Of a DNA stretch of 46,400 nucleotides, positions 1-45,958 are shown piece after piece (position 1 is the stretch's first letter; every line of letters begins with the position of its first letter). The position numbers were made by a program, and so were the translations under genes. Source of the stretch: Candidatus Hydrogenedens sp. (GTDB lineage Bacteria; Hydrogenedentota; Hydrogenedentia; Hydrogenedentales; CAITNO01). The notes under the pieces were generated by a model. It was not told where the DNA came from. It saw only the letters and a list, made by a program, of their open reading frames with translations, and ran no database searches. The stretch is taken from NCBI GenBank assembly GCA_012522755.1, contig JAAYJV010000059.1, positions 1-46,400 of the forward strand. The letters run 5' to 3'.

Positions 1-165
1 ACGGCTTCGCCTTCAATAACGGCTTCGCCTTCAATAACGGCTTCACCTTCAATAACGGCTTCGCCTTCAATAACGGCTTCGCCTTCAATGACGGCTTCGC
101 CTTCGATCACGGCTTCACCTTCTACAGGTTCAACTTCACCCTCACTTTCACCGGAGCAGTTTTCA
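1..165 (-). repeat. EGEAVI linker running off the window edge
   Basis: An 18-bp in-frame repeat encoding E-G-E-A-V-I that starts in the protein after a SEGEVEPV segment and continues past position 1. At least seven units are visible. More protein domains or a C-terminal sorting signal must lie outside the window. Confidence 0.9.
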
Positions 166-13730: not shown

Positions 13731-13740
13731 ACCTAATTCT

Positions 13741-27123: not shown

Positions 27124-27732
27124 ATGTGTGCACATAGTAAACATCTCCCCGCCAAGGAACGGCGATTGGTAACAGTCAAGACCGTCGTCGAGTTGGCGGG
27201 AGAACAAAACCCAAGTGAAATCACCACAGCGGCCATTGCCGAACGCATGGGTTTGACCCAGGGTGCTCTCTTCCGCCATTTTGCCAATAAAGAAGCCATT
27301 TTACAGGCCGTTATGGAATGGGCCGGAGCACATTTGATGGCTCGCATCGAAAAAGCCGTTGCCAAACAGTCTCCCCCTTGTGCTGCTCTGGAGAGCATGT
27401 TTATGGCCCATGTAGATTTTATAGTAAAGCATCCCGGTATTCCCCGCATGCTCTTTGGAGAACTGCAAGGGTCCGAAGAAACGGCACCCAAACAAATGGC
27501 TCAAAAACTTATCAGTCGCTATGGGGCACTGCTCAACAATTTATTTGAAAAGGGGAAAAGTGACGGTGACATTGATCCTGATCTCGACAATGGGACAGCG
27601 GCCACGCTTTTCATCGGAACCATTCAAGGGCTGGTCATGCAATCACTTATAGATGGTGATGTGAGTCAGATGCAGACCAATGCGCCAAAAGTCTTCGCCA
27701 TCTATCTTCGTGGCATAAGGAGTACATCATGA
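27124..27732 (+). CDS. TetR/AcrR family transcriptional regulator
   Basis: 202 residues. The N-terminal helix-turn-helix reads EITTAAIAERMGLTQGALFRHFANKEAIL (about residues 33-62), followed by an all-helical ligand-binding domain with HPGIPRMLFGEL, typical of AcrR-type regulators. ATG 27124 has AAAGG 7 nt upstream; a nearby ATG at 27119 is out of frame. It overlaps the adaptor gene (ATGA), so regulator and pump are one transcript, and it probably represses its own promoter until an effector binds. Confidence 0.93.
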   Translation: MCAHSKHLPAKERRLVTVKTVVELAGEQNPSEITTAAIAERMGLTQGALFRHFANKEAILQAVMEWAGAHLMARIEKAVAKQSPPCAALESMFMAHVDFIVKHPGIPRMLFGELQGSEETAPKQMAQKLISRYGALLNNLFEKGKSDGDIDPDLDNGTAATLFIGTIQGLVMQSLIDGDVSQMQTNAPKVFAIYLRGIRSTS

Positions 27733-28880: not shown

Positions 28881-30082
28881 TCAGTCTGGCAGGACGCGAC
28901 ATCCTGCACTCCTGGGGAAAGTTTGTCTTTACCGGCATGGGACTTGGACTGCTCATCGGCATCACCCTGTCCATGGCTGGCATCTATCGGGGCATGGTGG
29001 ATGACGCCAAAGTATTACTGGACAACAGCGGTGCTGATCTCTGGGTCGTGCAGAAGGATACCCTGGGTCCTTACGCTGAGTCATCAAGTATTTACGATGA
29101 TATCTGGCGTGGAATTCGTGGTATGCCCGGTGTCGAAGAGGTTGCTAATATCACCTATCTGACCATGCAGGTTTTCAAAGGAGATCATGACGTACGTGCC
29201 ATGGTCACAGGAATCACACCCGGAGAAGTGGGAACCCCGGGCTGGCCTCTTTACCTGGTTGCAGGACGCCAGATCACCAGAAGTCATTACGAAGCCGTGG
29301 CTGACATAGCCACAGGGTTCAAACTTGGCGATCAAATTCGAATCCGACGCCATCATTACACGGTTACAGGTCTGACCAGGCGAATGGTTTCCTCCAATGG
29401 TGATCCCATGGTCTTCATTCCCCTGAAAGATGCGCAGGAAGCGCTTTTTCTGAAAGACAATGACGCCATCTGGGAGCAACGCCGACGGTCAGCGGGCACA
29501 CCGGCTTTCAATCGTCCAGGCCTTCCCGATCTGTTGGATTCTTTCATGGCCTCTCAAAGTACAAACCCTTTCGTCAACGCCGTTTTGGTACGGGTTGGGG
29601 CCGGTCACAGGCCTGAGGAAGTCGCCGCATCCATACGCCGCTGGAAGCGTCTGACTGTCTATACGCGTGCTCAGATGGAAGAAATCCTGGTTGGGAAGCT
29701 TATAGCTACTTCGGCCCGGCAAATCTTCATGTTTCTGGTGATTCTTTCCCTGGTGAGCTCGGCCATTGTTGCTTTCATTATCTACACCTTGACGCTCGGA
29801 AAAATTCGTGAAATTGCTGTCTTGAAACTGATCGGCACAAAAAACCGTACCATTGTGGGTCTCATCATACAGCAGTCCATCGCTTTGGGCATGATCGGTT
29901 TTGTAGTTGGCAAGATTTCAGCCACTTTGTTGATGGCACCGATCTTCCCCAAATATGTATTGTTGCTCCCCTTCGATTCTGTCATCGGTTTTTTCGTGGT
30001 CGTTGTGATTTGCATTCTGTCCAGTATTATCGCTATTCGTGCTGCCCTAAGCGTCGATCCGGCTGAAGCCATAGGAGGTTGA
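28877..30082 (+). CDS. DevC/MacB-like ABC transporter permease (FtsX fold)
   Basis: 401 residues. An N-terminal transmembrane helix (about 16-36) is followed by a periplasmic domain of about 230 residues (NSGADLWVVQKDTLGP, GVEEVANITY) and three C-terminal helices of the FtsX core (about 278-300, 330-350, 368-390), ending SVDPAEAIGG, the usual FtsX/DevC tail. Length and layout match DevC-type permeases. It works with the adaptor and the ATPase as an exporter. Start overlaps the adaptor stop. Confidence 0.92.
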   Translation: MISLAGRDILHSWGKFVFTGMGLGLLIGITLSMAGIYRGMVDDAKVLLDNSGADLWVVQKDTLGPYAESSSIYDDIWRGIRGMPGVEEVANITYLTMQVFKGDHDVRAMVTGITPGEVGTPGWPLYLVAGRQITRSHYEAVADIATGFKLGDQIRIRRHHYTVTGLTRRMVSSNGDPMVFIPLKDAQEALFLKDNDAIWEQRRRSAGTPAFNRPGLPDLLDSFMASQSTNPFVNAVLVRVGAGHRPEEVAASIRRWKRLTVYTRAQMEEILVGKLIATSARQIFMFLVILSLVSSAIVAFIIYTLTLGKIREIAVLKLIGTKNRTIVGLIIQQSIALGMIGFVVGKISATLLMAPIFPKYVLLLPFDSVIGFFVVVVICILSSIIAIRAALSVDPAEAIGG

Positions 30083-30083
30083 T

Positions 30084-30794
30084 ATGGTCAATAAAGGTAT
30101 TCGTATAGAAGGATTAAAAAAGACCTATGGCAGCGGCGATACAGCTGTTGAGGCCTTGAAATCAGTAGACATGTACGTTGCTCCGGGCGAAGTGGTGGGT
30201 CTCATAGGACCTTCAGGTTCGGGCAAGAGCACACTCCTGAAATGTCTGGGAGCGGTCATTGAGCCTACGGCCGGGAAAATGGTTCTCGGTGATGACGTCA
30301 TTTATGACGATGCCTGGAAAGTCAGAGACCTCCGCGCCTTGCGAAGAGATCGCATCGGTTTTGTGTTTCAGGCGCCCTACCTGATTCCCTTTCTCGACGT
30401 CACCGACAATGTCGCCCTGCTCCCCATGCTGGCAGGCGTGCGTAATGGCGATGCGCGCAAACGTGCCATGGAGTTATTCGAAGCGCTGGAAGTGGAACAT
30501 CGTGCCAAAGCCATGCCTTCGCAGCTTTCCGGAGGAGAACAGCAACGGGTGGCCATTGCCCGGGGATTGGTCAATCGTCCTCCGGTGATTCTTGCCGATG
30601 AACCGACAGCGCCTCTGGACAGTGATCGTGCTCTGGCTGTCATCCAGATACTCAATGATATGGCGAAAAAATACGAGACCGCCATTATTGTAGTGACCCA
30701 CGATGAAAAGATCATTCCGACTTTCAAACGCATTTATCACATCCGTGACGGCGTGACTTATGAAGAAGAAGGTGAAGGGCGTGCCATTGAATAA
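30084..30794 (+). CDS. ABC transporter ATP-binding protein (DevA/LolD/MacB type)
   Basis: 236 residues. Walker A is GPSGSGKST (about 43-51), the Q-loop is FVFQAPYLIPFLDV, the signature is LSGGEQQRVAIAR, Walker B is VILADEPTAPLDS and the H-loop is VVTHDEK. The Walker B segment has TAPLD where TAALD or TGNLD is usual, but catalytic E is kept. GGAGG lies 5 nt before ATG 30084, which is one base after the permease stop. It powers the permease; cytoplasmic. Confidence 0.95.
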   Translation: MVNKGIRIEGLKKTYGSGDTAVEALKSVDMYVAPGEVVGLIGPSGSGKSTLLKCLGAVIEPTAGKMVLGDDVIYDDAWKVRDLRALRRDRIGFVFQAPYLIPFLDVTDNVALLPMLAGVRNGDARKRAMELFEALEVEHRAKAMPSQLSGGEQQRVAIARGLVNRPPVILADEPTAPLDSDRALAVIQILNDMAKKYETAIIVVTHDEKIIPTFKRIYHIRDGVTYEEEGEGRAIE

Positions 30795-30842
30795 ACGCTA
30801 TCCAGATCAAACATTCAGAAATATTCCTCAAGGAATCTTGAT

Positions 30843-32345
30843 ATGAATAAAAAGAGAACAACTCCTTATTTTATTTTTCTTATTGCCGCTATTTTCCTAG
30901 CAGGCTGTGCAACGGGACCGGAATTCCAACGGCCTGCTCCGCCTCGTGTGGCCGACTATACGCCTACACCGGTGGACGATGCTTCCTCGACCCTCGCTGA
31001 TTCACAGACAATTATCCCAGGCGAAGGGCCGACACCTTATTGGTGGCGTTCGATGAATTGTCCTAAGCTGGAAACGCTCATCAACGAAGCCATGGAACGC
31101 AATCCCACACTCATGGCCGCTGAGGCTACCATGCACCAGGCACAGGAACTCTATGCGGCACAGGCAGGCCACACAAACTATCCGCAGATAGAAGGCGGCC
31201 TGAATCTGCAACGTCGCCGCTTCAATCCCGGAGCATTGGGACAGGGAGGAGAAGCGCGGGAGTTCAGCCTCTACAATGCAAGTATAGGCGTTCATTACAC
31301 CTTTGATCTGGCAGGAGGCAATCGCAGTGCGTTGGAAGCATTGGCCGCCCGGAGTGATTATCAGCTCTTCCAACTGGAAGCCGCCCGGTTGACGCTCATT
31401 GCGAATATCGTTACCACAGCCATCAGCCAGGCAAGCACACGCAAACAGATCGAAATCACAAACAGCATTTTGAGGGCCCAGGAAAAGCAACTTGAATTGA
31501 TGGAAGCATCTATTCTCCTGGGTCGTGGCGAGCCTGCCGATGCCCTGGCATTGCAGACACAGGTGGAGCAACGACGTGCCACCTTACCGCTCTTGCAAAA
31601 CCAATTGCAGGAAAGCGAACATTTGCTGGCTGTCCTCGTGGGCAAAGCGCCGGGACAAGCTCCCATGCCCTCCTTCAGCCTGGAAGATTTTACTTTGCCA
31701 TCCGAATTGCCCCTCTTGATCCCCTCTGAGCTGGTACGTTCCCGGCCTGATATTCTTGGTGCGGAAGCACTGCTTGAGGCCGCAAATGCGGACTACGGCG
31801 TTGCCGTATCGAAACTCTATCCTCAGTTCACTCTCGGTACCGATCTGGGATCGCAAGCCCTCACTGTGGGGAAATTATTCAACAGCTCTTCCGTTGTCTG
31901 GGATCTGGTGGGACAACTTACCCAGCCCTTATTCAACCCGGGCCTGCCAGCTGAAAAAAGAGCTGCTCTGGCCGCTTTTGATGCTGCAGCGGCAAATTAC
32001 CAGTATGTTGTTCTGGAAGCGATGCGCAATGTTGCTGATGTCTTGAGAGCTTTGGAAAACGATTCAAAACGGTTGGAGGCACTTTCCAATGCTGATCTGG
32101 CCTCTGAAAAGTCTTTAGAAACAACACAACGTCGTTATGCACTCGGAGCAAACAGCTATTTTGATGTGCTCAGTGCACAGCAATTACGGCTGCAAACTGA
32201 ACTTGATCTGGTAGAGGGACAAAGCAAAAGACTTTTTAACACAGTAGCTTTTTATCAAGCCATGGGTGGTGGGTTTTACGACTTCAGCGGAAGCTTGGAC
32301 GATTTGTCTGCGCCCCAAGAAAAGGAACAGACCCTTTTGCAGTAG
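30843..32345 (+). CDS. NodT-family outer-membrane efflux lipoprotein (TolC-like)
   Basis: 500 residues. Lipoprotein signal ends in FLAGC (Cys at about residue 22), followed by ATGPEFQRPAPP, the standard opening of NodT/OprM-type factors. Two helical repeats with coiled-coil character follow, the second containing RSRPDILGAEALLEAANADYGVAVSKLYPQ, highly characteristic of this family. It forms the outer-membrane channel of the pump. It lies 48 bp after the ATPase gene with AAGGA before ATG 30843. Confidence 0.94.
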   Translation: MNKKRTTPYFIFLIAAIFLAGCATGPEFQRPAPPRVADYTPTPVDDASSTLADSQTIIPGEGPTPYWWRSMNCPKLETLINEAMERNPTLMAAEATMHQAQELYAAQAGHTNYPQIEGGLNLQRRRFNPGALGQGGEAREFSLYNASIGVHYTFDLAGGNRSALEALAARSDYQLFQLEAARLTLIANIVTTAISQASTRKQIEITNSILRAQEKQLELMEASILLGRGEPADALALQTQVEQRRATLPLLQNQLQESEHLLAVLVGKAPGQAPMPSFSLEDFTLPSELPLLIPSELVRSRPDILGAEALLEAANADYGVAVSKLYPQFTLGTDLGSQALTVGKLFNSSSVVWDLVGQLTQPLFNPGLPAEKRAALAAFDAAAANYQYVVLEAMRNVADVLRALENDSKRLEALSNADLASEKSLETTQRRYALGANSYFDVLSAQQLRLQTELDLVEGQSKRLFNTVAFYQAMGGGFYDFSGSLDDLSAPQEKEQTLLQ

Positions 32346-32363: not shown

Positions 32364-32393
32364 TTGAATAGAATTCGCTTTTGTCGTTACAAT
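32364..32393 (+). promoter_or_regulatory. Sigma70-type promoter of the GH38-like gene
   Basis: TTGAAT (32364-32369) and TACAAT (32388-32393) are 18 bp apart. The start site would be near 32400, which supports ATG 32434 as the true start and excludes the longer frame from 32392. Confidence 0.6.
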
Positions 32394-32433
32394 GGTTAAA
32401 ACTTACTTCAGAAATATAACGAAAGGACTTTTC

Positions 32434-35400
32434 ATGGGCATCCCCTATTCCCGTCTCCTGCTTTTGTTGAGCCTGCTTCTTCTGGCCATTCCGGCGCAGA
32501 CAGCAGAATTATGGCGCCTGGGCGCAACAGACAACGACTATGGCGAGTTCGCGCTGGCCGGTCAGCACGAAGATTTTCTCGCCACCTTCGCTCAGGGCGT
32601 GAACCTCACCATCAACACTGATAATCCCGCTGAGAACTGGCCTTTCATTCATCCCGGCCCGGAAGATCAATGGGCCGGCGGTCGTCCTCAAGTCTTCAAA
32701 CTTCACTTTGATATGGAGACCATTCCCGAGACGGGTTGTCGTTTTACCCTGGCTCTCACAGGGACTCACCCCAAAACGCCGCCACGGATCATGATTTCCG
32801 TCAATGGACATGCCGGTGAACAAATCCAGCTTGCGTCTGGAAAAACTGAAGAGGTTCTGCAGGACTCAAAAAAAGGAACCCCTTTCAGCCATTCCGTGGT
32901 TTTTCCATCCGATTGGCTGCGGACGGAAGGTAACTACATGGAAATCGCCACTCTGGCCGGTTCGTGGATGCTTTATGACAGTCTGCTGCTTGAGGATGGC
33001 GTCTCTCCCAAGCCGGAAATTACAGCCTTTACAGCGGAAAACACGCTTCTATTCAAAAATGTGCAGAAGAACCTTCGTCAGGCTGTGCGCATCCGTCTGA
33101 GTAATGCAGGTCTTGCCGGAAAAGCCACGCTCACACTGGCGGGCAATGAAGAAGTCAGCCAGGAGATCACCATCCCCCATGGCGACTCCACCATCATGTT
33201 TCTCGTGCCGCCCTTCGAGAAAAAAGAATGGCGACAGGTTGTGTTGAAAACGGAGAATCACGAGCGAATGGTCGGTTTTGATGCTGTTCCGGAACGGCAA
33301 TGGACTCTTTTCGTGGCACCCTCAGCCCACACGGACATCGGCTATACGGATCTTCAGGAAAAATGTATGGCTCTCCATGCGGACAATGCCCGCCTGGCAC
33401 TGGAAGAGATCAAGTCCAATCCTCTCTTCCGCTGGAATCTGGAGGTTTTCGCCCAATATGACTGGTTCAAAGAACATCATCCCGAACTGGTGGAAGAACT
33501 GGACGCGCAGATCCAGGAGGGAAAGATCGGTCTCACGGCTCTTTATCTGAACATGCTCACAGGGCTCTGTTCAGGCAGCGAAATGATGCGTCTTCTCGCT
33601 CCGGCACAGACGGCGGCCCGGCGTCTTGGGGTCCCTGTGAAGATGGCTTCCATGAATGACATCCCCGCCGCCACCGGCACGATGCCCATGTTCCTCAGCC
33701 AGGCCGGTGTACGCTATTTTGCCGAGGCCTTGAACAACGACCGGGGCCCCGTATTCCGTCATTGTGATGCGGAAATGAATCAGTCGCCCTTCTGGTGGGA
33801 AGCGCCCGACGGCTCACGGGTACTCACCATTTTCACGCGCACCTATTTCCAGGCCATGCAGATCAAACTACACGAAAGTGTGGCCGCCATGGAAGAATCG
33901 CTCCCGGCCTTTCTGAAAATTTTTGTCCGCGACGACTATCCGGGTGATGCGCTCTTTATCAACGGAGCCTACCTCGACAACTGGGGCATGGATCCCGTCT
34001 ACGGAAAAATTGCCGAAGAATGGAACCGCAACTGGGCATCTCCGAAGATCCGGTTGTCTACGGCATCGGAATATTTTGAATATATTGAAAAGAATTTCGC
34101 CCAGGATCTGCCCGTGTACAAAGGGTCTATGGGCGGTTTCTGGGAAGACGGCGCCGCATCAACAGCCAAAGAGACCTCTCAGGTCCGGTGGTCAAAGAAC
34201 CTGGTTTCCGCACTGGAAAAATGGGAAGCTCTGGCGGGACTCGCCGGAATGGCTGATACAAACAGTGCGGAGCATGAGGCACTCTGGAACAATATCATCT
34301 ACTTTGATGAGCACACCTGGGGCTCGGCCGTGAGCATTCGTGATCCAGAAAATCCGCAAAGTACCGGCCAGTGGGCACGGAAAGCAGCCTATTCTGATCG
34401 GGCTTATGAGGCAAGTTGCTCGGCTGCGAAAAACCGGGGACTGGCTGCCTTTGAGCATGTGGCCGACTTTTCCCAGCCCTCTGAGAATCAGGTACTCACT
34501 GTATTGAACTCTTTCAGCTGGGAAAGAAATGTTCCTGTCAGCCTGCCAGCCGGCGCGGCGGGAGGTTGCACAGTTGTCAAAGACCTGAAAAATGGAAGAA
34601 AGGCGGTTGTCCAGCGCACTGCTTCCGGCGGCCTGTATTTTCTGGCTGAAGAAATTCCTCCACTGGGCTGGCGCAGCTATGAACTCACAGCGGGTGATGC
34701 CCTGAATGGAAAGGCTCTGCTCAGCTCCTCTGATTCAGATCCGTACACTTTCTCCACGCCGCTCTTTTCATTCCATGTCAATCCTCAGACAGGCGGTCTG
34801 GACAGTCTGGTGAATCTGGAAACTGGCGAAGACTGGGTGGAGGCTTCCTCGGGCTACCATATGAATCAGTTTGTCCATGTGGCTGGCGGCCGGGCCGGCA
34901 TCGTTTATTCGGACCATCCGACCTTCAGCGATTTCACACTCTCCTCCCCCACTCAGGCCACAGTCTCCGTGCTGGAAAACGGGCCCTGTCGGGCTGTGCT
35001 GCAGATCAACAGCACGGGTGGCATGTCTCCCGTGGAAACACAGCTCATCATCCACGAAGATGGCACCCTGGACTTCATCAATACCATCCGTAAAACGGAG
35101 ACTCTGGAAAAAGAAGGCGGCTATTTTGCCTTTCCCTTCAATATGAATACGCCGGATCGCACGACAGCCCGCATGGAAGCACCTTATGGTATTTTTGCGG
35201 CCGATCAGGATTATATGCCCGGCGCCTGTCGCGAATGGCATACGGTGCAGCATTTTGCCTCTGTGGACAATGACCTTCGCTCCGCCTGTATCGCCGCACC
35301 GGACACCCCTCTCTTCACTGTGGGGGATATCAACCGCGGTTTATGGCCCAGCCGTCTGGGTGGCAACCGTCATATCCTTTTCGCCTATGTCTACAACAAT

Positions 35401-35841
35401 TACTGGCACACCAATTACAAAGCCTCTCAGGGTGGTGATCTCCGCTGTGCCTTTTCTCTGAATCTCAGTGAAAAGCCCTTTGACGAAACAGAGGCCACAC
35501 GCTTTGGCTGGTCGCGCTCTCTTGATCTGACACCGGGCGTGCGGAACTTCACTCTCGGCCAGGAAAAGCCGAAAAATCTTTCTTCCGGACTGGTCAGCTT
35601 GAGCGATAAATCTCTCATCGTCAGCGAGCTGCTCCGTCTTCCCGGAGAGAAAAAGGCACTGGTCCGCCTCTACAATCCCGGAGCGGTTGCTTCCCGCAGC
35701 ACATTGAAATTCCGTGGTGCCCCTATTCGCAAGATGTACAAGACGGATCTCTTAGGAGAGAATGGCGAAGAAATTCCGGCGCAGCTGGCCTTTACGGTTC
35801 CCGCCCGCAGCATCGTCACACTCGTTGTGGAAGGAAAATAA
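32434..35841 (+). CDS. Secreted GH38-like alpha-mannosidase family protein
   Basis: 1135 residues from ATG 32434 (AAAGGA 6 nt upstream, clean signal peptide ending QTAELW). The N-terminal 165 residues (WRLGATDNDYGEF, FTLALTGTHP, ISVNGH) resemble the carbohydrate-binding domain III of family 4 polysaccharide lyases. The catalytic part starts near residue 290 with APSAHTDIGYTD (metal ligands H299, D301) and contains MASMNDIPAATG, where D409 is the candidate nucleophile. Later segments (DEHTWGSA, VLNSFSWERNVPVSL, NPQTGGLDSLVN) match the C-terminal beta-sandwich part of GH38 enzymes. It likely removes alpha-mannose from exported or scavenged glycans. Single-gene transcript with its own promoter and terminator. 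Confidence 0.88.
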   Translation: MGIPYSRLLLLLSLLLLAIPAQTAELWRLGATDNDYGEFALAGQHEDFLATFAQGVNLTINTDNPAENWPFIHPGPEDQWAGGRPQVFKLHFDMETIPETGCRFTLALTGTHPKTPPRIMISVNGHAGEQIQLASGKTEEVLQDSKKGTPFSHSVVFPSDWLRTEGNYMEIATLAGSWMLYDSLLLEDGVSPKPEITAFTAENTLLFKNVQKNLRQAVRIRLSNAGLAGKATLTLAGNEEVSQEITIPHGDSTIMFLVPPFEKKEWRQVVLKTENHERMVGFDAVPERQWTLFVAPSAHTDIGYTDLQEKCMALHADNARLALEEIKSNPLFRWNLEVFAQYDWFKEHHPELVEELDAQIQEGKIGLTALYLNMLTGLCSGSEMMRLLAPAQTAARRLGVPVKMASMNDIPAATGTMPMFLSQAGVRYFAEALNNDRGPVFRHCDAEMNQSPFWWEAPDGSRVLTIFTRTYFQAMQIKLHESVAAMEESLPAFLKIFVRDDYPGDALFINGAYLDNWGMDPVYGKIAEEWNRNWASPKIRLSTASEYFEYIEKNFAQDLPVYKGSMGGFWEDGAASTAKETSQVRWSKNLVSALEKWEALAGLAGMADTNSAEHEALWNNIIYFDEHTWGSAVSIRDPENPQSTGQWARKAAYSDRAYEASCSAAKNRGLAAFEHVADFSQPSENQVLTVLNSFSWERNVPVSLPAGAAGGCTVVKDLKNGRKAVVQRTASGGLYFLAEEIPPLGWRSYELTAGDALNGKALLSSSDSDPYTFSTPLFSFHVNPQTGGLDSLVNLETGEDWVEASSGYHMNQFVHVAGGRAGIVYSDHPTFSDFTLSSPTQATVSVLENGPCRAVLQINSTGGMSPVETQLIIHEDGTLDFINTIRKTETLEKEGGYFAFPFNMNTPDRTTARMEAPYGIFAADQDYMPGACREWHTVQHFASVDNDLRSACIAAPDTPLFTVGDINRGLWPSRLGGNRHILFAYVYNNYWHTNYKASQGGDLRCAFSLNLSEKPFDETEATRFGWSRSLDLTPGVRNFTLGQEKPKNLSSGLVSLSDKSLIVSELLRLPGEKKALVRLYNPGAVASRSTLKFRGAPIRKMYKTDLLGENGEEIPAQLAFTVPARSIVTLVVEGK

Positions 35842-35874: not shown

Positions 35875-36699
35875 TCACGAACCCTCTGCAGGCTCATTCA
35901 CTTGCAGAGGGTTTTTATTTTCTTCTGAATCCCGCCCCGGGATCGGGGTCTGTGAGGGAATGAGAGCAGCAAAGGTCACCACAAAAAGAGTCAGTCCCCA
36001 GATGGAAATATGTTCAATAATCGCCTGAGACTGAACCTTTGCTGTTGCTTTCATTAAAGTATCCAGAGCCGATGTTGCGCCGGATTGAAAAAAAAGTCCC
36101 CACTGGACATGAATGCCGATGACAACAAAGACAGTGAGCACAATCAGAAAAGGCGGAAAAAAGACCAGATATCCCCAGCGACTGCTCACCTCCATGCGTT
36201 TGTGAAAAATCCGGTCTCTCACCAGCAATGAAGCATGCCAGATAGCGCCGATGGAAAAAAAGACGCCAATGGACACCGCCGTAATCCCGTGTATATCGGC
36301 CCAACGCCAGGCTCCCAGAAAGACAGTGCGGGAATAAGGAAAAAAACCGGTCAATGCAATGGCCAGAGATCCGGCAAGAAAGAAAATACTTCCCACCGTC
36401 GCTCTCCAGGAAGAAATGATTTTCATATGGCGGCGGATATAGAGCATGACCGGTGCCATGACAAATCCACAATAGACCATAGCCAGAGAAAAGAGCCAGA
36501 ACCATTGTGGATTGCAGCGTGCGTCAAAACAGCCCAGAGCGCTGAGCATGTTTCTGGTGATGGAATAATGATTGGCCGGCGGATATCCCAAACGCGCCAG
36601 AAGCACCAGACCCCAGAAGCCGCCTGTAAGAATCACCAGATGCCAGCGAATTTCTTTCGGCGTGTGATCGCCTTTCAGATAACGCAACATGCGCTTCAT
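35875..36699 (-). CDS. DUF998-like polytopic membrane protein
   Basis: 274 residues with about six hydrophobic helices. The segment NHYSITRNMLSALGC after the first helix, followed by NPQWFWLFSLAMVYCGFVMAP, resembles the S-x-x-R-N-x-x-S-x-L-G pattern of DUF998 proteins. The function of the family is not established. Its last codons form the stem of the convergent terminator. It is 42 bp downstream of the ceramidase-like gene in the same direction and is probably the last gene of a five-gene operon. Confidence 0.75.
   Translation of the reverse strand: MKRMLRYLKGDHTPKEIRWHLVILTGGFWGLVLLARLGYPPANHYSITRNMLSALGCFDARCNPQWFWLFSLAMVYCGFVMAPVMLYIRRHMKIISSWRATVGSIFFLAGSLAIALTGFFPYSRTVFLGAWRWADIHGITAVSIGVFFSIGAIWHASLLVRDRIFHKRMEVSSRWGYLVFFPPFLIVLTVFVVIGIHVQWGLFFQSGATSALDTLMKATAKVQSQAIIEHISIWGLTLFVVTFAALIPSQTPIPGRDSEENKNPLQVNEPAEGS
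35881..35916 (+). terminator. Rho-independent terminator of the GH38-like gene
   Basis: ACCCTCTGCA (35881-35890) pairs perfectly with TGCAGAGGGT (35903-35912), 12-nt loop, followed by five T. It lies inside the last codons of the convergent membrane-protein gene, so the same DNA is coding on the minus strand. Confidence 0.8.
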
Positions 36700-36741
36700 G
36701 GCTGCTCTCCCTTCCAGCCTTCCGCTCTGGAAGCCTTCCTG

Positions 36742-38166
36742 TTACCAGGCGGCCACCAGAGCCGGAGCGGGCTGATGCATGACGTCAACCATTTTTTCCA
36801 TCAGAGTTGTGAAAAAAGATTCCATATGAGGGCCGAGCCAGGACAGTTGCCCCGTCTCATAGCTCAATCTTCCCTTGTGATCAAAGAGCTCATGATAATA
36901 TTTATCGGGCGAAATATAGCCCGCATAATCGCCGGAAAAACCGGAGACCCATAGACTCAAGCCCTGCGCTTCTCCCCAGTCCTGCCAGTCGGCGGCAATC
37001 TCACCACTGAAATCGCCCGGCGTATTCACGAAAAGAACATCGCCCACTTTAACCGCGCCAACCCAGCCGCGATTGCTCAATCCGACGATATGGCGAACGA
37101 GGGGCGACAGGCGCCAGTTGGGACTGAAGAGCCGCACTTGCAGCGAAGGCAGTTCCATGGAAGCGCCCACACTGGCCACATCAGCCCGGTCAGTATAGTC
37201 CAAGTCAGCCTCTGTGGCATCCAGAACCAGTTCTGCCAGAGCATGACCCAGCAACTCACATTTCTCAAAATCGATTTCCGCCTGGGGCGCGCGGGGGCTC
37301 ATGCTGCCCACAGCTCCACCAAGATAAACCGCTGTGGCACCCGTTTTCTCTTCGAGCCTGCGCTGCAAGTAGCCGGGAAATTCCGCTGAGACTTCCATGG
37401 TGCTGCTGTTCAGAATGGTGGGATGGGCTGAAAAACGTGTCATGACACAGCGTTCGCCTCCTTCCTTCTCGATCATCATCCAGTTCAGAAGCGGATCCAC
37501 CCCGGCATCCCGGGTCCGGTTGCGGATATAGTCCGTCGCATCCACAGCACCCTGTGCGAATTTCGCAGGTGCCAGAGAGTTATAAGCGTCCAGAACAGCT
37601 TTCGTGAAAGCTTCGGCCAGAACTGGAGGCACGGCCGGATCATAGGGTCCGAAAGAAATGGAAGCTATGAGTCCCGGTGCGAAAGCACCCACACTGTTGT
37701 GGCTGTGACTGGCTGTGAAGAAAATATTCGATGCCTGAAGTGGTGTTTCCCGTGCCACAGCCTCCCGAACCAGATCAGCCACATTGGTGGGGATGAGCAG
37801 CATATCTGCGCCCACGATGACGGCTGTGTCTTCTCCATCACTGAAAGCAACCGCCTTCACAAATACATCATCATGAATCCCCGTGGAAGGAGCTCCTTCC
37901 CGGGCACTCAATCCAGCCAGAGGCACTCCTTTCGGCGGATTCAGATTGGCAACGCCCCAGCCGCACAAGAGTGCATCAGGCTGGTCAGTGAGCGTATTCA
38001 GAGTAGCGGCCTGGTCTATAAGCTGCAGGTTCCTGTTGAAATAAGCGGTGTTTTCAAAACTGGAAGTATAAGCGGGCCAAGGCCCGATAAAGGTTAAAAA
38101 GAGACCCGCGATCAGCAGGAAAACAACAAGAAGACCTGAAACAATTCTTTTGAACAAACGCATCAT
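36742..38166 (-). CDS. Neutral/alkaline ceramidase N-terminal family protein
   Basis: 474 residues from ATG 38166 (AAGGA upstream, tandem ATG). One N-terminal transmembrane helix (about 8-28) anchors a periplasmic enzyme domain. Diagnostic segments are LNPPKGVPLAGLSAREG, FSDGEDTAVIVGADML, FFTASHSHNSVGAF (metal-binding His pair) and FSAHPTILNSS, as in the neutral/alkaline non-lysosomal ceramidase N-terminal domain. The family contains true ceramidases but many bacterial members are uncharacterised. It lies directly downstream of a Cwh43-like gene, which makes a lipid-amide substrate more likely. Confidence 0.82.
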   Translation of the reverse strand: MMRLFKRIVSGLLVVFLLIAGLFLTFIGPWPAYTSSFENTAYFNRNLQLIDQAATLNTLTDQPDALLCGWGVANLNPPKGVPLAGLSAREGAPSTGIHDDVFVKAVAFSDGEDTAVIVGADMLLIPTNVADLVREAVARETPLQASNIFFTASHSHNSVGAFAPGLIASISFGPYDPAVPPVLAEAFTKAVLDAYNSLAPAKFAQGAVDATDYIRNRTRDAGVDPLLNWMMIEKEGGERCVMTRFSAHPTILNSSTMEVSAEFPGYLQRRLEEKTGATAVYLGGAVGSMSPRAPQAEIDFEKCELLGHALAELVLDATEADLDYTDRADVASVGASMELPSLQVRLFSPNWRLSPLVRHIVGLSNRGWVGAVKVGDVLFVNTPGDFSGEIAADWQDWGEAQGLSLWVSGFSGDYAGYISPDKYYHELFDHKGRLSYETGQLSWLGPHMESFFTTLMEKMVDVMHQPAPALVAAW

Positions 38167-38227
38167 CGAATCCTTCCAGCAGGCTGGGAGTTATTTTAAA
38201 GAGAAGACATTCTTATCAAAGAAGGTC

Positions 38228-40252
38228 TCAGAAAAGAGACTGGTCTTTTATGGCTGTGGTTTCATTTTTTTCTAAAAACAGTTCCTCCTCTTTCCACGTA
38301 ATCACAGCCCAGTGCAAGGGGTGATCACTGTGGGAATGAGAAGGCGGGATAAAATGACTTTCCAGAACCTCAACCGATTCTGTCACAAAAATGTGATCGA
38401 TATTCTTGTCAGGCATAACACTTCCACTGACTTTCTCCGCAGCCGTAGCAGGAAAATGGGAAGTCAGAAAATCACGATAGGCCTCCTGCAAAGTAAAGTT
38501 GAAGTCGCCCATTGCAATTGCCAGGGGATATCCTTTCTGCTTTTCCAATACTTGTAACACATGGGCCGTCATGGCTGCCTCACCACCGTCGGGATGATTG
38601 CAACTCACAGAGAGTTTTTTTCCTCCAATAGACAACAACACATGAAGCGTAGCGATTTCATCTCTGTCACTGAAGGTGTAAACGATCTCACCGCTGTGAA
38701 TGGGATAACGGGAAAGAAGAGCTGTTCCGAAGCTGCCGGAGATGGTGCCGGGACCATAGCAGACATAATACCCGAGCGTTTCGGCGAAATAACGTACAGG
38801 ATCAACGAAACCTCCGGAAATCCGCGCCGTGTCACTCTCCTGCAAAGCAATGATATCCAGATCGAGCGATTCCAGAAGCGCACATTGTTCTCTGTAACTG
38901 ATTTCTCCCGAAAGGTTGGAGCCCTGTTGAATGTTGTAAGTGCCTATGCGCAGGCTTTTTTTGTCTGACATTATTTCCGGGTGGATATAAACCATTTGAA
39001 CCAACTGAAGGCCAAAAGTGAAACCTGCCAGAAGAATAAATACAATGCGCCCTTGTATACCAAGCCGTTGACGGGTCAATACTTTTGCACCTTTCCTCCA
39101 GGGAAGCATCAAGCTGAGACCCATGAGAAGGAAGGGAAGATAAAAGTGGTTTCGTAATACGCTACCCCCCGGCACATAACCCCATACATTGATGATTATT
39201 GACAGCAAGGCCAGAGTCAGCAGAAAAAGAAAGGTGGGCACCACTCTTAAGAGAGCAGCTTGAGGATCAGGAAAGGTACAGCGTGCCTGAATCTGTCGAA
39301 TATTGACAGGGAGAACCAGGGCAACTATAAAGGAACAAATTAATAAGAAGTTTGGCGGCTCGTGTAGAGCTATCGTATTTACATCCGCAACAGTCGCAGG
39401 GAGTTGCGGGCGACCCAGAATGAGACAGGATACCAGAAGGCCTGCGAAAAGTGCATTGTAAATAATATTTCCTTTCCCCGAATGAAGTGACAGCTTTTCC
39501 GTATCAGTGAGAACCAGCCAAATCAGCAAGGCCGAAACATAATAGCGGCCTGGTACGTGAGCATCTTCGTACCCGAACCAGCAGACCAGTGTGTGTGGAA
39601 CAGTAAAAAAGAATACTACCAGAGCAAAATTGCCGAAAGCACTCAGTACGTCCATCCAACAGCCCGAGGACTCATTCTCCTGTTTTTCAGTCAGCTCCTC
39701 CTCACATTCTTGAGGGGCAAAATGTCTCCAGGTAAAATAAACAGCCATTGCCACAAGGGCTGCACAGGCCAGCACCGATGAACCATCCATGGATATATCC
39801 ACGGAATATCCCAGCGACCGCAAGAGAATATAGCTGAAAATACTCAGGATGAGTGCATAGCCTGCATCCCCCTGCAGATGCCTGTAAGGTTTGCTCAGCC
39901 AGGCAGCATAAAGAATGAGAAAGTTCGCTACGCCCAGTCCCGCCACAATGACCTGTATCCTGATGGGCAAAAAAGGACAGAGGAACCTCAAAAGAAGAAA
40001 GAGAAATACGCTTCCTTTCAGAAACAAACTTTCCTTCTTCTTCGGAACCACCAGAAAGACAAGGGCATAAAGAAAAAGGAGCAGCCCTGCTGTTTCCAGC
40101 CCCGGATCAAGCTTAATCAGACTCAAGCGGTATATACTTTCAATCCACCGACCGAAAAGCTGGAAAAAGAAAAGAAGCAGCAAAGCAAAATAGAAGGTCT
40201 TCTGATTCTTCTCTCTCAAGATATGTCTCTCATCGGATTTCGACAAAAGCAT
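38228..40252 (-). CDS. Multi-pass membrane protein with Cwh43-type EEP domain
   Basis: 674 residues. About 11-12 transmembrane helices fill the first 430 residues; the remaining 240 form an endonuclease/exonuclease/phosphatase domain. The segments GTYNIQQG, IIALQESDTARISGG, PVRYFAETLGYY, GTALLSRYPI, AIAMGDFNF and NIDHIF, then SHSHSDHP, closely follow the C-terminal domain of eukaryotic Cwh43/PGAP2IP, the protein involved in exchanging GPI lipid for ceramide in yeast. Metal and catalytic residues (N of YNIQ, E of LQE, D and N of GDFN, D and H of SDHP) are present. The catalytic domain would face the periplasm if the usual topology holds. ATG 40252 overlaps the stop of the upstream DUF4091 gene. 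Confidence 0.85.
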   Translation of the reverse strand: MLLSKSDERHILREKNQKTFYFALLLLFFFQLFGRWIESIYRLSLIKLDPGLETAGLLLFLYALVFLVVPKKKESLFLKGSVFLFLLLRFLCPFLPIRIQVIVAGLGVANFLILYAAWLSKPYRHLQGDAGYALILSIFSYILLRSLGYSVDISMDGSSVLACAALVAMAVYFTWRHFAPQECEEELTEKQENESSGCWMDVLSAFGNFALVVFFFTVPHTLVCWFGYEDAHVPGRYYVSALLIWLVLTDTEKLSLHSGKGNIIYNALFAGLLVSCLILGRPQLPATVADVNTIALHEPPNFLLICSFIVALVLPVNIRQIQARCTFPDPQAALLRVVPTFLFLLTLALLSIIINVWGYVPGGSVLRNHFYLPFLLMGLSLMLPWRKGAKVLTRQRLGIQGRIVFILLAGFTFGLQLVQMVYIHPEIMSDKKSLRIGTYNIQQGSNLSGEISYREQCALLESLDLDIIALQESDTARISGGFVDPVRYFAETLGYYVCYGPGTISGSFGTALLSRYPIHSGEIVYTFSDRDEIATLHVLLSIGGKKLSVSCNHPDGGEAAMTAHVLQVLEKQKGYPLAIAMGDFNFTLQEAYRDFLTSHFPATAAEKVSGSVMPDKNIDHIFVTESVEVLESHFIPPSHSHSDHPLHWAVITWKEEELFLEKNETTAIKDQSLF

Positions 40253-42612
40253 TACTCCTCTTCCAAAAGCATAATCCCTTCTTCAATCAAGGCATCCACT
40301 TCATGACGGGCCCGGACAAGCACTTCCGGATCCTGGCTGTATTCTGTCCAGGAACGGGTCACCTCTTCTTTCACCTGCAACACAAGCCTGGCTTTCTCAA
40401 GAAATGCGGCATGCTCTTCAACGGAGGCCCGTCCGGCAATCTCTTCCAGCATGGCCAGGGCTTCATAGTCTTCAATACCGTCACGCAAGTTTGCCATGCG
40501 CATACTCGCCAGAGGCTCCCGCTCCGGTCCGGGATACATGAGGATGCCATCGCTGTTAGTCTTGAATGAATAAGGGTTCCAGGGACGTTCAGGCCACTTG
40601 GGTCCTTCCGTATTCCAGTTTTCCTGGCCGTCATAAATATTGATGAGGTAATACAAAAAGCCGGTAATACCCTGTTGGTAATATTGCCAGGGCAGCATGC
40701 GCGGATCCACACCGGGAAAGTCGATGAAGAGATTCGCATAAGGCTTTCCCGGCCCGCACCAGACATAGGCCCAGACCTCATCTCCCGCCACCTGCCGTTC
40801 CCGAACGGTTTCCATCTTTTCTTTCGGCAGTTGCTGCGTCAGAGGCGTCCACACATTGATGAGGCCATAATGTTTTTCGTTGATGGGGTTGGCGCTTTCC
40901 CGTTTCAGCCAGGGAAACTCATCACGGAGCATGCTGAAAACACGCTGGATGGAGGGATCCACCTTGTTCACGGGATCCTCACGCATTTCAGATTCATCAA
41001 AGCCATGGACATACCAGCACATATCCGGCCAGTCCTTTTCCTGAATGAAAGTTTCCCAGGAACGGATCCACGCTTCCAGTTCCTCCATCTGACGATCGGC
41101 CACCTCAGGATCAGCAGAGAGAACATCCACATTGGTCAGGCAGGTGGCGTTCATTCCCCGTTCATAGCAATAGTCCATATGCTCCGCCGGAGGCATGACA
41201 CGGCTGCGCCCGTCCTTGATTCGCGAATAGATTTGTGTCGGACTGAGCCGGTGGGCCAGCAGAAAATCATAGAGCCTGTACCAATCTTCACGGCTGAGAA
41301 TATCTTCACATTCCGGAGTACTGTACAAAGGTCCATGGTTGGCTTTGTCAGTCAGGCCCAGGCGCGCTTTCACAGCCTCGGGGGCATACCACATTTCCCA
41401 GATACCGGGTGAAAAACAAAAGGCCGTCTTCAACTTTCCACGGAGAGGCAGCGAAAAATTACGTACCGTCAGGCTGAGGGGCACACACTGCTCCCCTTCG
41501 TCACAGCGAATGGTGATGATGCCCCGGTATTCCCCGGCCGGACAGCCGTCAGGCACGGAAACGGTGAACCACAGGGGCTGGACATAACCGGCTTCCACAT
41601 CCACTTTCCCGGCTGGCATGAGCACATCGGGCCACCACCAGCCCGCACGGCGTATGGAGGAGTTGGATTCACGGGTCTGTATATACCCCACAGGATTCCA
41701 GCTGACATACTCAGCGCCCAGACGGCCTTCCCCGCCGCTTTGCAGCAGGTCCGTGCAGGATGCCTCCAGCCCATGAAGAGCGTTGCCGGAAGGGATGACG
41801 ACAATCTGGAAACTCTCTGATTCTCTACCAGCCGCCGCAATAGCTGCAGAGCCGCCCAGAATACCTTGAAAATCGCCCGCTTCACGAAAAACCTTTTCCA
41901 TGGGACTGGTCACAGCTGTCAGAAACGCCGCTTTCTCGTCGGCTTCCACAGCCCGGAATTCCTCTATTCCGGACAGCTTGAGTTGTAGCGGATCCTCCGG
42001 TATGACTTTGCTGATCCGCAGCCATTTCCACAGACTTTCGCTGGCGGATTCTTCATAATCAGCCAGACAGATGCGACCCGATTTATACCCCTCATGCCAT
42101 ACGGGCACAGGGCTTGTCAGTTGTTTTTCGCCATTGATTTTCCAGTCGAAGACCTCATAGCGGTTGAAGTCGCAGGACATGACCACCTCTTCACCCCGCT
42201 TCAGCTCTGTCCCGGCTCTGTGTCGGGCGTTCAAGGTAGGACGTGTTCCCGTAAACTCCACCACGAAAGGGCCTTCCATATCGATGTGCTGGCCCCAGCC
42301 GCCGATGAGCAAAGGGGCTACGGCCCATTCAATCCGCAGCAGATAACCATCACGGGCCGAGGGGATATCTTCTTTGAGCACACTGCGTGCGCCGTGCATG
42401 GTCTTCCCTTCGGCACTGAGCGTATGCAAGCCGCCCTTCTCAAAAGCCGCCTCTCCCTCCGGCTTCCAGGCCTCTCGGTCAAAGGCATCATCCAGGCGAT
42501 ACTCCCAGATCACTTCCACCTTCTCCGCAAAGGACGACGAAGGCAACACGAGCATACACAGCAGAACTGCAAAACAAGTCGTAAAGGAAATCCTCTTCTC
42601 AGTCTTCATCAT
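40252..42612 (-). CDS. Secreted DUF4091 glycoside-hydrolase-like protein
   Basis: 786 residues from ATG 42612, the middle of three tandem ATGs, with GGAG 7 nt upstream; longer starts lie inside the previous gene. Signal peptide to about residue 30 (ends SSSFA). An N-terminal beta-sandwich (LDDAFDREAWKPEG) is followed by a barrel-like part with YVHGFDESEM, NVWTPLTQQLP and DEVWAYVWCGPGKPYAN. It ends with LMYPGPEREPLASMRMANLRDGIEDYEAL, the signature of DUF4091. DUF4091 proteins are regarded as glycoside-hydrolase-like but the substrate is unknown. Overlaps neighbours on both sides in a minus-strand operon. Confidence 0.87.
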   Translation of the reverse strand: MMKTEKRISFTTCFAVLLCMLVLPSSSFAEKVEVIWEYRLDDAFDREAWKPEGEAAFEKGGLHTLSAEGKTMHGARSVLKEDIPSARDGYLLRIEWAVAPLLIGGWGQHIDMEGPFVVEFTGTRPTLNARHRAGTELKRGEEVVMSCDFNRYEVFDWKINGEKQLTSPVPVWHEGYKSGRICLADYEESASESLWKWLRISKVIPEDPLQLKLSGIEEFRAVEADEKAAFLTAVTSPMEKVFREAGDFQGILGGSAAIAAAGRESESFQIVVIPSGNALHGLEASCTDLLQSGGEGRLGAEYVSWNPVGYIQTRESNSSIRRAGWWWPDVLMPAGKVDVEAGYVQPLWFTVSVPDGCPAGEYRGIITIRCDEGEQCVPLSLTVRNFSLPLRGKLKTAFCFSPGIWEMWYAPEAVKARLGLTDKANHGPLYSTPECEDILSREDWYRLYDFLLAHRLSPTQIYSRIKDGRSRVMPPAEHMDYCYERGMNATCLTNVDVLSADPEVADRQMEELEAWIRSWETFIQEKDWPDMCWYVHGFDESEMREDPVNKVDPSIQRVFSMLRDEFPWLKRESANPINEKHYGLINVWTPLTQQLPKEKMETVRERQVAGDEVWAYVWCGPGKPYANLFIDFPGVDPRMLPWQYYQQGITGFLYYLINIYDGQENWNTEGPKWPERPWNPYSFKTNSDGILMYPGPEREPLASMRMANLRDGIEDYEALAMLEEIAGRASVEEHAAFLEKARLVLQVKEEVTRSWTEYSQDPEVLVRARHEVDALIEEGIMLLEEE

Positions 42613-43627
42613 CATGAGTCTCCGTTTTTCTGAGATCAAAGCGCAAGGTAGCAAACAGCGCCGGATGATCCGAGGCATCCTGTTGCGGATCACCGTAAGA
42701 GTTGTAATCCATGATCCACTCACCGACACTCACTTCACCCGGTCCGGCCACCAGAATATGCTCTATGGCCTGATCATAGGCGGTGAAGCTTTCCCGTTCC
42801 GTATTTCTCTCGCCAGCCGTATAAAGCTGCATTTCCAGCGCCGGAGCCAGATCAGCAGCATTCGTGAAAACCTTCACCCCTTCCGTCCCGCTCAAGAGCT
42901 TTTCATAACGTTCCGCCCGGAGATCCGTATTGAAATCGCCTGTGAAAACAATGGGCAGTCGTTCCCCATGCTTCGCGAAATTGTCATACATGATGGGCGC
43001 TGTCGTATCTTTATTGAGCGAATTGTTGTCGAAATGAGAATTCATGAAAAGAAAGGTGAAGCCATTGCTTTTATCACGGAGACAGGCCCAACAGGCATAA
43101 CGGGGCATGCTCAGGCGCAACCACCCGAAGCCGAAGGGCAGGTTGTGTTTGGGGTTCAACCAGAACTGACCGGAGTCGAGCAGTTCAAAGCGTTCCTTCT
43201 TGAAAAAGAGTGCTGAGTCCGCATAGGTCCAGGGCCCGAAAGTGAAGGTGACCGTCTCATATTCTTCCGTATCGGCCAGAAGCTCTTCTATATCTTTCCA
43301 ACCGCCCAGCTCCTGGGACCCGAAAAGATCCGGATCATAATAGGCAATGAGCCGCCGCAGATAAGGCAGTCTTTCTTCCCAGGGCTGTTCCGGTTCACAG
43401 ATGCGACAGAGAATGTTGTAGCAGAGGACACGCAATTCACCGCTGGAACACTCTTCCTCACCGAAACAGTTTCGGGCCGGTTCATACCCTGAAGAATCAA
43501 AATAAGGGTCACGAATGGAATTGGTGAGCAATCCCAGCGTGTACTGGATCCCGTTATAATTCACATAGAAAAAGAGCAGTAAACAAATCAGCGTTATACG
43601 TATCAGATAACGCAGCACTTTACGCAT
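42599..43627 (-). CDS. Membrane-anchored endonuclease/exonuclease/phosphatase family protein
   Basis: 342 residues from ATG 43627 (GGGAG 10 nt upstream), which places an N-terminal helix (IRITLICLLLFFYV) at residues 8-21. EEP motifs follow: VLCYNILCR, DLFGSQELGG, LFMNSHFDNNS, IVFTGDFNTD, YDQAIEHILV and DASDHPALFATL. All catalytic elements (N, E, H, D-N and D-H) are present. Soluble bacterial EEP proteins include sphingomyelinases, nucleases and phosphodiesterases; the substrate is not deducible. First gene of the operon and overlapping the DUF4091 gene. Confidence 0.87.
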   Translation of the reverse strand: MRKVLRYLIRITLICLLLFFYVNYNGIQYTLGLLTNSIRDPYFDSSGYEPARNCFGEEECSSGELRVLCYNILCRICEPEQPWEERLPYLRRLIAYYDPDLFGSQELGGWKDIEELLADTEEYETVTFTFGPWTYADSALFFKKERFELLDSGQFWLNPKHNLPFGFGWLRLSMPRYACWACLRDKSNGFTFLFMNSHFDNNSLNKDTTAPIMYDNFAKHGERLPIVFTGDFNTDLRAERYEKLLSGTEGVKVFTNAADLAPALEMQLYTAGERNTERESFTAYDQAIEHILVAGPGEVSVGEWIMDYNSYGDPQQDASDHPALFATLRFDLRKTETHDDED

Positions 43628-43820
43628 GATAAAAGATCTCCCTGTTTTATTTTTCGTGGCAATGGCTGAAGCATGACCCGACACTCACTGCATACTACCA
43701 CCCTCCCCGCTTCCATTTAAACTATATCGCCCCCTGATTTTTATGCTACCATGGGTTTTTGATGCAGACCAGGGATCTGGAAGCATTTACAGTCCCCGGC
43801 AACGATAAGGAACATCTGTC

Positions 43821-44690
43821 ATGAAAAGAAGAACATTTCTGGAACTCACCGGTGCCGCACTGGCCGCAACAGCCTTTCCGGCAAAGGCACAAGATACCTG
43901 TGTTTCACTGAATACAATCGCCTATAATGTGCTCGCCTTCCGAGGCTTTCCCCGTACTGACGATAACAGGCATACCATAGGCGCCGCTCACAGCCGTCTT
44001 CCCGAAATCACGGCTGAAGCACTCAGAGTATTCAAGCCCGACCTCATCACCTTCAAAGAAGGTCCCTATGAAAAGAAAGTAAAACGTTTCGCTGATGCGC
44101 TGGGCATGAACTACGCCTTCTTCCCCGGAGGCTGGAAAGGCGACTACACCTATCCTGGCGGCTTTCCCGGAGCCGTCATCACACGCTATGAAATACTGTT
44201 CAGCGAGAACAGACCCACAGCGGGAGAGCCCCATCCCGACACTCTCTATACCCGCCATCTCGGCCGTGCGGTGTTGTCCACGCCCTTCGGGAAACTCCAT
44301 GTCATCACCACCCATTTCCACGCACACAAGGAAGAGGTGCGCATTGAAGAAGCCAAAAAGATCATTGAGCTCATCGACACGCTGCGCGATTCCGCACCCG
44401 TCCTGCTCCAGGGCGATCTGAACCATCGTCCCGAAGGGCCCGAATATAAACTGTGGGTCGATGCGGGTCTCGTCGATATCGGCCTGAAAATGGGCATAGG
44501 CGAGGAACCCACTTGCCCCACCACAGGCGGCCGTGCTCGAATCGACTATATCTGGGCGACTCCCGATCTGGCCGAAAAAGCCACTGGAGCCGCCGTCCTG
44601 AACAAACCGCCCTTCGTTCCTGACCCTGAAGACAAAACTTCTTTCGCTCTCAGTGATCATATGCCCGTTATGGCAAGCTTTTCAGGTTGA
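43821..44690 (+). CDS. Tat-exported endonuclease/exonuclease/phosphatase family protein
   Basis: 289 residues. The N-terminus MKRRTFLELTGAALAATAFPAKA has a twin-arginine motif (RRTFLEL) and an A-x-A cleavage site, so it should be exported folded. EEP motifs: LNTIAYNVLAFRG, DLITFKEG, VITTHFHAHKEE, LLQGDLNHRPEG, ARIDYIWATP and FALSDHMPVMASF. The usual Q/E-E motif is FKEG and the usual DFN is DLN. It is divergent from the EEP-led operon and followed 29 bp later by a TolB-like propeller gene. Substrate unknown. Confidence 0.87.
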   Translation: MKRRTFLELTGAALAATAFPAKAQDTCVSLNTIAYNVLAFRGFPRTDDNRHTIGAAHSRLPEITAEALRVFKPDLITFKEGPYEKKVKRFADALGMNYAFFPGGWKGDYTYPGGFPGAVITRYEILFSENRPTAGEPHPDTLYTRHLGRAVLSTPFGKLHVITTHFHAHKEEVRIEEAKKIIELIDTLRDSAPVLLQGDLNHRPEGPEYKLWVDAGLVDIGLKMGIGEEPTCPTTGGRARIDYIWATPDLAEKATGAAVLNKPPFVPDPEDKTSFALSDHMPVMASFSG

Positions 44691-44719
44691 TTCTTCTACC
44701 ATCGGAAAGGAAGTTTTTC

Positions 44720-45958
44720 ATGCGCTTTCAAACAAGCACAGTCCTCATTCTTTTTATCGCTTTGAGTCTGTCAGTCTCCGCCACGGCCGATACGAGCCTC
44801 TGCGAGGCGGAAGTCCCCTTCATGGCCCTGACGGAAGGACCTATGGCCCACTGGTTCGCTTATTACGATAAATTCCAGTTCGATCCCTCGGATCGTTATG
44901 TGCTCGCCATGGAAGTGGGCTTTGAAGACCGTGCGCCCCGGGCCGATGATGCCATTGTTCTCGGTATGATCGATCTTCAGGATGGGAATAAATGGATTCC
45001 CTTTGCAGAAACGACCGCCTGGTGCTGGCAACAGGGTGCCATGCTTCAATGGCTGCCCGGCTCCTCCGAAGAAGTGATCTATAATATCCGCACAGAATCA
45101 GACTATGCCTCCGTGATCCACAATGTATTCACGGGAGAAAAACGTCAGCTTCCCCGGCCCGTATATGCCGTGAATCCCGACGGAAAATCCGCTGTAGGGC
45201 TCAATTTCACCCGTCTGGGCGATACACGGCCCGGCTACGGATATAACGGCTTTGAAGATCCTCTTCATGAAGAACTGCATCCCGACTCGGAAGGCATTTA
45301 TCATCTGGATCTGACTACAGGTGAATCCAGGACCATCATCAACTTGAATCAGATCGCGCTGGGCTATGGCAACGAAACAACAGCCCTCGGAAAACACTGG
45401 TTCAATCATCTCTTGTACAACACCGACGGCAGCCGCTTCATCTTCCTTCATCGCTGGCACAAGGAAAACAGGAAAGGCCGCTTTACCCAGGGCTTCACAG
45501 CTGCACCCGATGGCAGCGATATCTTCTGCTTCAACGACAACGGCATGGTCTCTCATTTCATCTGGCGTGATGAAAAAGAGATTCTCGCCTGGTCAACGGA
45601 AAAAGAGACGGGCAATAAATTCCACCGTTACTTCGATCAAAGCGATCGTGTCGAGGTGGTGGCCCCGGAGGTGCTCATTCAGGACGGGCACTGCACCTGG
45701 TCGCCCTGCGGAAACTGGATTCTTACGGACACTTATCCCGACAAGGAAAGAAAACAGACGCTGCTGCTCTACCGACCTGCCGACGGGAAGCGCGTTGACC
45801 TCGGGCGTTTTTTCCAGGAGCGGGCGACGGAAGAACAATTGCGCTGTGATTTGCATCCCAGCTGGAACAGGGCTGGCACACAGATTTGCATCGATTCGTT
45901 GTGCTCCGGCCAGAGACAGGTGTATTTGCTGGATGTGGGTGCGGTAATTAGGAACTAG
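44720..45958 (+). CDS. Secreted TolB-like beta-propeller protein
   Basis: 412 residues from ATG 44720 (AAGGAAG upstream); signal peptide to about residue 22 (ends ATA). Propeller blades are visible as FDPSDRYVLAMEVGF, GAMLQWLPGSSEEVIYN, YNTDGSRFIFLHRW, CTWSPCGNWILTDTYPD and HPSWNRAGTQICIDS. Such proteins are often annotated as oligogalacturonate-lyase-like or TolB-like; the lyase residues cannot be confirmed here. Co-directional with the Tat-exported EEP gene, probably one transcript. Confidence 0.82.
   Translation: MRFQTSTVLILFIALSLSVSATADTSLCEAEVPFMALTEGPMAHWFAYYDKFQFDPSDRYVLAMEVGFEDRAPRADDAIVLGMIDLQDGNKWIPFAETTAWCWQQGAMLQWLPGSSEEVIYNIRTESDYASVIHNVFTGEKRQLPRPVYAVNPDGKSAVGLNFTRLGDTRPGYGYNGFEDPLHEELHPDSEGIYHLDLTTGESRTIINLNQIALGYGNETTALGKHWFNHLLYNTDGSRFIFLHRWHKENRKGRFTQGFTAAPDGSDIFCFNDNGMVSHFIWRDEKEILAWSTEKETGNKFHRYFDQSDRVEVVAPEVLIQDGHCTWSPCGNWILTDTYPDKERKQTLLLYRPADGKRVDLGRFFQERATEEQLRCDLHPSWNRAGTQICIDSLCSGQRQVYLLDVGAVIRN

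Follow-up and report, generated by a model that had tools for sequence, protein, structure and literature searches.

Eukaryotic Cwh43/PGAP2IP remodels the lipid of GPI anchors. The role of its EEP domain was called vague in a study of 2023, where Cwh43, PGAP2IP, the GlcNAc-phosphodiesterases and an "Asgard/Chloroflexus group" formed one EEP cluster (PMC10704324). According to the same work, the Asgard/Chloroflexus group differs in size and domain organisation; no functional work on it was included (PMC10704324). Those members of the GlcNAc-6-phosphodiesterase family that have been characterised come from the Clostridia group and are short, secreted and made of a single domain. Alanine mutants of GlcNAc-PDase were assayed at six residues: N60, E89, D204, N206, D266 and H267 (PMC10704324). 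Herein, we describe a bacterial relative of these proteins, in which an EEP domain of the Cwh43/PGAP2IP subfamily follows a polytopic membrane part, along with the gene cluster that harbours it.

The Cwh43-like gene and its locus

The window, i.e., the whole stretch of 46,400 nucleotides that was analysed, represents contig C22 of a 4.0-Mb bacterial genome (95% complete), whose close relatives with titles are nearly all Candidatus Hydrogenedentota MAGs. Five ORFs lie on its minus strand, transcribed in the order EEP2, GH123/DUF4091, Cwh43-like, ceramidase-family and DUF998-like (Table 1), about where the original prediction had placed them. The overlaps and short gaps described there were also found: the Cwh43-like and GH123 genes share one base (40252), while 61 nt separate the Cwh43-like gene from the ceramidase-family gene and 42 nt separate the latter from the DUF998-like gene. 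For EEP2, the boundary given earlier coincides with the likely ATG, the longest ORF starting further upstream. The proposed operon thus stands as to its five genes, but it left out two plus-strand genes kept beside it, coding for EEP3 and the 423-aa exported protein. Gene order is preserved in another species of the genus (locus L039), which rules out an assembly artefact as the origin of the cluster. The block including EEP3, the 423-aa gene and GH38 is present in the sister species (G001) at 42% to 79% identity.

Table 1. Genes of the cluster and its flanks, with window coordinates
Feature	Coordinates	Strand	Remarks
GH38 alpha-mannosidase family protein	32392-35841	+	convergent neighbour; kept in sister species
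DUF998-like membrane protein	35875-36699	-	274 aa; ~6 membrane helices
Neutral-ceramidase-family protein (PF04734)	36742-38166	-	474 aa; N-terminal membrane anchor
Cwh43/PGAP2IP-like protein	38228-40252	-	674 aa; PF23226, PF03372
GH123 (DUF4091) glycosidase	40252-42729	-	signal peptide; likely ATG near 42615
EEP2	42599-43684	-	longest ORF from 43684; likely ATG 43627
EEP3, exported EEP protein	43821-44690	+	divergently transcribed; kept with cluster in sister species
423-aa exported protein	44687-45958	+	without Pfam family; kept in sister species

Two further elements of the window deserve mention. A plus-strand tripartite efflux operon (27124-32345), composed of genes for TetR, HlyD, a MacB-type permease, an ABC ATPase and an outer-membrane efflux protein, is located just before GH38, and a minus-strand ORF of 4581 aa (3-13745) is open at the contig end.

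In the Cwh43-like protein, about 12-13 membrane helices (aa 20-421) precede the EEP domain (aa 432-653). Its AlphaFold2 model (pTM 0.83) likewise showed a bundle of membrane helices besides the EEP domain. Foldseek comparison of this model with the PDB listed only EEP domains, to which the EEP domain of the model bears resemblance; searching the PDB with the protein as a single query gave no match.

Relationship to Cwh43/PGAP2IP

A contig scan with the single Cwh43-like sequence as the query returned nothing, while a scan of 84,980 genomes with an alignment of 17 Hydrogenedentota members succeeded; both alignments taken together hold 61 members. With sequence identities of approximately 26-34%, relatives spanning the whole length, membrane part included, turned up in Asgard archaea (Lokiarchaeota, Heimdallarchaeota, Hodarchaeum and Prometheoarchaeum) and in Chloroflexota, where most belong to Anaerolineae. 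On the full-length tree, members grouped mostly by phylum. Among 60 related genomes, 21 carried the gene, the window genome being counted.

Several loci of this family showed features of their own. In Heimdallarchaeota (L127 and L136), a single gene separates two Cwh43-like genes, which are thus nearly in tandem. A gene for a beta-lactamase-type serine hydrolase recurs near the Cwh43-like gene at eight loci (including L097, L107, L119, L122, L124, L130 and L132) of Heimdallarchaeota and Chloroflexota, directly adjoining it in several; this was not seen in Hydrogenedentota. Cwh43-like genes from records titled Verrucomicrobia (L070) and Nitrospiraceae (L067) fell among Hydrogenedentota members. 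Since the L067 protein is 100% identical to that of L050 (from G057, which belongs to the same order as the window), the title of the L067 record looks wrong.

The EEP domain belongs to the Cwh43/PGAP2IP subfamily, as originally predicted. It matched PF23226 (Exo_endo_phos_PGAP2IP) at 63.9 bits, with a cut-off of 27, and PF03372 at 62.1 bits. All 61 prokaryotic members of the two alignments matched PF23226, with 61-93 bits among the individually printed ones, against 36-54 bits or no match for the soluble EEPs of the phylum. Grouping with generic nucleases was not observed: generic EEPs from the same and related genomes either had no match to PF23226 or matched PF03372 with the higher score. 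For comparison with yeast, we used a sequence that we take to be Cwh43 on the strength of its length (953 aa) and its Pfam scores, with matches of 142-406 bits to Frag1, to the two 6TM domains and to the PGAP2IP-type EEP. The prokaryotic EEP profile recovered this yeast sequence at 70 bits (E 1e-19). On an EEP tree including yeast, the latter had no firm position, its branch measuring 4.57. On the EEP tree, the members linked to GH123 (the window protein, L039 and L040) had branches of 0.58-0.71, as compared with a median of 0.29, which suggests faster change after joining the cluster.

N440, E472, D583, N585, D643 and H644 of the window protein match the six GlcNAc-PDase metal-site residues, a correspondence made by motif and not by alignment. 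Together with H553, they are invariant in 61/61 prokaryotic members. Such conservation suggests that the prokaryotic Cwh43-like proteins may be working phosphodiesterases. In our alignment, yeast Cwh43 keeps the Glu (E719) and the catalytic His (H802, corresponding to H553), which are thus shared with the window protein, but differs at N440, D583 and H644, the alignment past H802 being uncertain. In the open-access literature, we found no study of residue H802.

In length, layout (two membrane units followed by EEP) and EEP subfamily, the window protein is like the C-terminal part of Cwh43, its length and layout being equal to those of yeast residues 280-909. The N-terminal Frag1/PGAP2 part of the yeast protein is missing from it. 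It could be argued that the membrane parts are nonetheless unrelated and that the prokaryotic proteins arose separately, by fusion of a PGAP2IP-type EEP domain with another polytopic domain. This would agree with the outcome of membrane-only comparisons: against the single yeast Cwh43, the HMMER search with a membrane-only profile was negative, and the hhalign score was not significant, falling within the shuffled range. For this reason, we do not claim homology from the membrane part alone. PF23022 (6TM_1st_PGAP2IP), the first 6TM family, had no match in the genome at E<=10 and was absent from the families listed for the two member alignments. However, two Chloroflexota members matched PF23021 (6TM_2nd_PGAP2IP) at the expected place, just ahead of the EEP domain: L129 at aa 320-376 (E 1.9e-4) and L135 at aa 194-391, where the match covers profile positions 4-177 of 181 (E 0.0041). 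Three further members matched in the same profile register, giving five prokaryotic members in all, each below the gathering score; the window protein itself had no PF23021 match. Moreover, full-length profile alignment to yeast Cwh43 scored 132.9 over 542 columns (108.5 for the EEP part alone), surpassing all 150 controls with hydropathy-preserving shuffling of the membrane part (at most 126.8 and 415 columns) and all 16 membrane rotations (at most 121.6). Overall, independent joining seems unlikely to us, and whole-length homology to Cwh43/PGAP2IP, with the membrane domain included, is likely, although not proven.

As for topology, the loop at 386-401, preceding the last helix, has a mean net charge of +2.1 over 61 sequences, while the N-terminus has +1.1. 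Judging by this positive loop and the positive-inside rule, the EEP domain is predicted to lie on the outer side of this membrane-embedded protein, facing away from the cytoplasm.

Glycan-related and ceramidase-family neighbours

The DUF4091 gene noted upstream of the Cwh43-like gene in the original prediction is now assigned to GH123_cat in Pfam (72 bits). Its catalytic DE pair, according to the motif as defined in PMC11087588, is found within GFDES (aa 578-579). The other upstream gene, correctly recognised as coding for an EEP protein, is EEP2, with one N-terminal membrane helix. Among solved structures, it is nearest to Bacteroides EEPs such as 3mpr and the mannosyl-6-phosphatase 4c1r (8.5e-22), from which EEP2 differs by its membrane anchor. 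Taken together, GH123, GH38 and the mannose-6-phosphatase-like EEP2 point to a possible extracytoplasmic role in which phosphodiesters on glycans or glycolipids would be cleaved. Conservation of this glycan context is limited to the genus, except that GH123 also adjoins the Cwh43-like gene in G008; elsewhere the neighbours are different and none is constant.

The assignment of the next downstream gene to the neutral-ceramidase family, with its metal-binding His pair, held up as well. The protein matched PF04734 at 46 bits, and a profile of the ceramidase-family paralogs of the genome matched the neutral ceramidase structure 2zws (1.1e-37) as well as 4wgk; used as a single query against the PDB, the protein gave no match. 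Compared with the 2zws site (H97, H204, E411, Y448 and the nucleophile Ser), it keeps the HxH, the second His, the Ser and the Tyr, with Asp in place of Glu411. Unlike true neutral ceramidases, it is devoid of the C-terminal domain, and its score on the NCBIfam neutral ceramidase model (29.9 bits) fails the cut-off of 1200. The family was present in 60/60 related genomes, with or without the Cwh43-like gene, in up to 18 copies per genome. Because of this universality, co-occurrence of the two families in genomes is uninformative; adjacency of the pair was limited to the genus, so that the lack of conserved pairing, which the original prediction had named as a refuting outcome, was largely borne out. 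The last gene of the operon was rightly described as DUF998-like: although the window protein has no Pfam match of its own, DUF998 was matched by 11/25 aligned family members (best 8e-11). This family occurs in 26/60 relatives with a distribution not matching that of the Cwh43-like gene, and a structure model of the window's protein had no match at E<=0.001.

Within 9 kb, the locus brings together GH123, a ceramidase-family gene and three genes for EEP proteins, an arrangement that might bring to mind the scavenging of exogenous sphingolipids or glycosphingolipids, where GH123 would trim GalNAc, an EEP protein would remove the phospho-headgroup and the ceramidase-family enzyme would split ceramide. 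The GH123 founder NgaP is a glycosphingolipid-degrading enzyme, and a missing serine palmitoyltransferase is no obstacle to such scavenging. However, the solved matches of EEP2 include no sphingomyelinase, the nearest ones being EEPs of the mannosyl-6-phosphatase type; every relative searched carries the ceramidase family, and the full cluster occurs in one genus only. We consider scavenging rather improbable.

The original prediction raised the idea of a pathway for remodelling a lipid anchor or a sphingolipid-like amide lipid, which would have the Cwh43-like and the ceramidase-family proteins act in turn on a lipid of the cell itself, and proposed to check the genome for serine palmitoyltransferase. 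No AOS-family enzyme (serine palmitoyltransferase, KBL, BioF; TIGR01825) was detected in the 95%-complete genome at E<=0.001, with 13/14 control genomes positive in the same search, nor in 10/13 other Hydrogenedentota carrying the Cwh43-like gene. Thus, in spite of the Cwh43 identity of the EEP protein, a zinc and catalytic site that is mostly preserved relative to neutral ceramidase, and the placement of both genes 61 nt apart on the same strand in an order kept in the sister species, a bacterial sphingolipid or lipid-remodelling pathway is very improbable, given the lack of this enzyme, the genus-only adjacency, the many-copy presence of the ceramidase family in every relative with no tie to the Cwh43-like gene, and the low NCBIfam score.

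Proposed function and significance

On balance, we lean towards the prokaryotic Cwh43-like protein being related to eukaryotic PGAP2IP over its whole length and equipped for catalysis, with a predicted role as a glycan or glycolipid phosphodiesterase on the outer face of the membrane. Two six-helix membrane units and one further helix would place the EEP domain outside the cytoplasmic membrane, where it would most likely hydrolyse a phosphodiester on a glycan or glycolipid by the metal-dependent EEP mechanism, for instance by removing a phospho-base or by splitting a sugar-phosphate-lipid bond. In the genus of the window, the gene would have joined a cluster whose genes code for exported glycan-processing proteins. 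The two downstream genes, ceramidase-family and DUF998-like, would belong to lineage-wide families, lie there by chance and probably serve other steps or substrates.

No open-access paper that we found deals with the membrane domain that these proteins share, with the metal site being intact in the membrane form or with the occurrence of the family in Hydrogenedentota. For GPI synthesis, a recent study inferred an Asgard origin, PGAP genes not being named (PMC12338589). Possible rather than probable, in our eyes, is a further step, namely that the prokaryotic family represents the stock of eukaryotic Cwh43/PGAP2IP. Early eukaryotes might have received an active outer-face glycolipid phosphodiesterase, present in Asgard archaea, by inheritance or acquisition. 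In yeast, it would then have been joined to the Frag1/PGAP2 part and, having lost most metal-site residues, have turned into a factor of GPI-lipid remodelling. The bacteria in question are not known to have a GPI system. The whole-length Asgard relative bears on the question of where the GPI machinery came from. The prokaryotic relatives of Cwh43/PGAP2IP with an intact metal site, which form a series from soluble to membrane proteins, offer enzymes that can be assayed.
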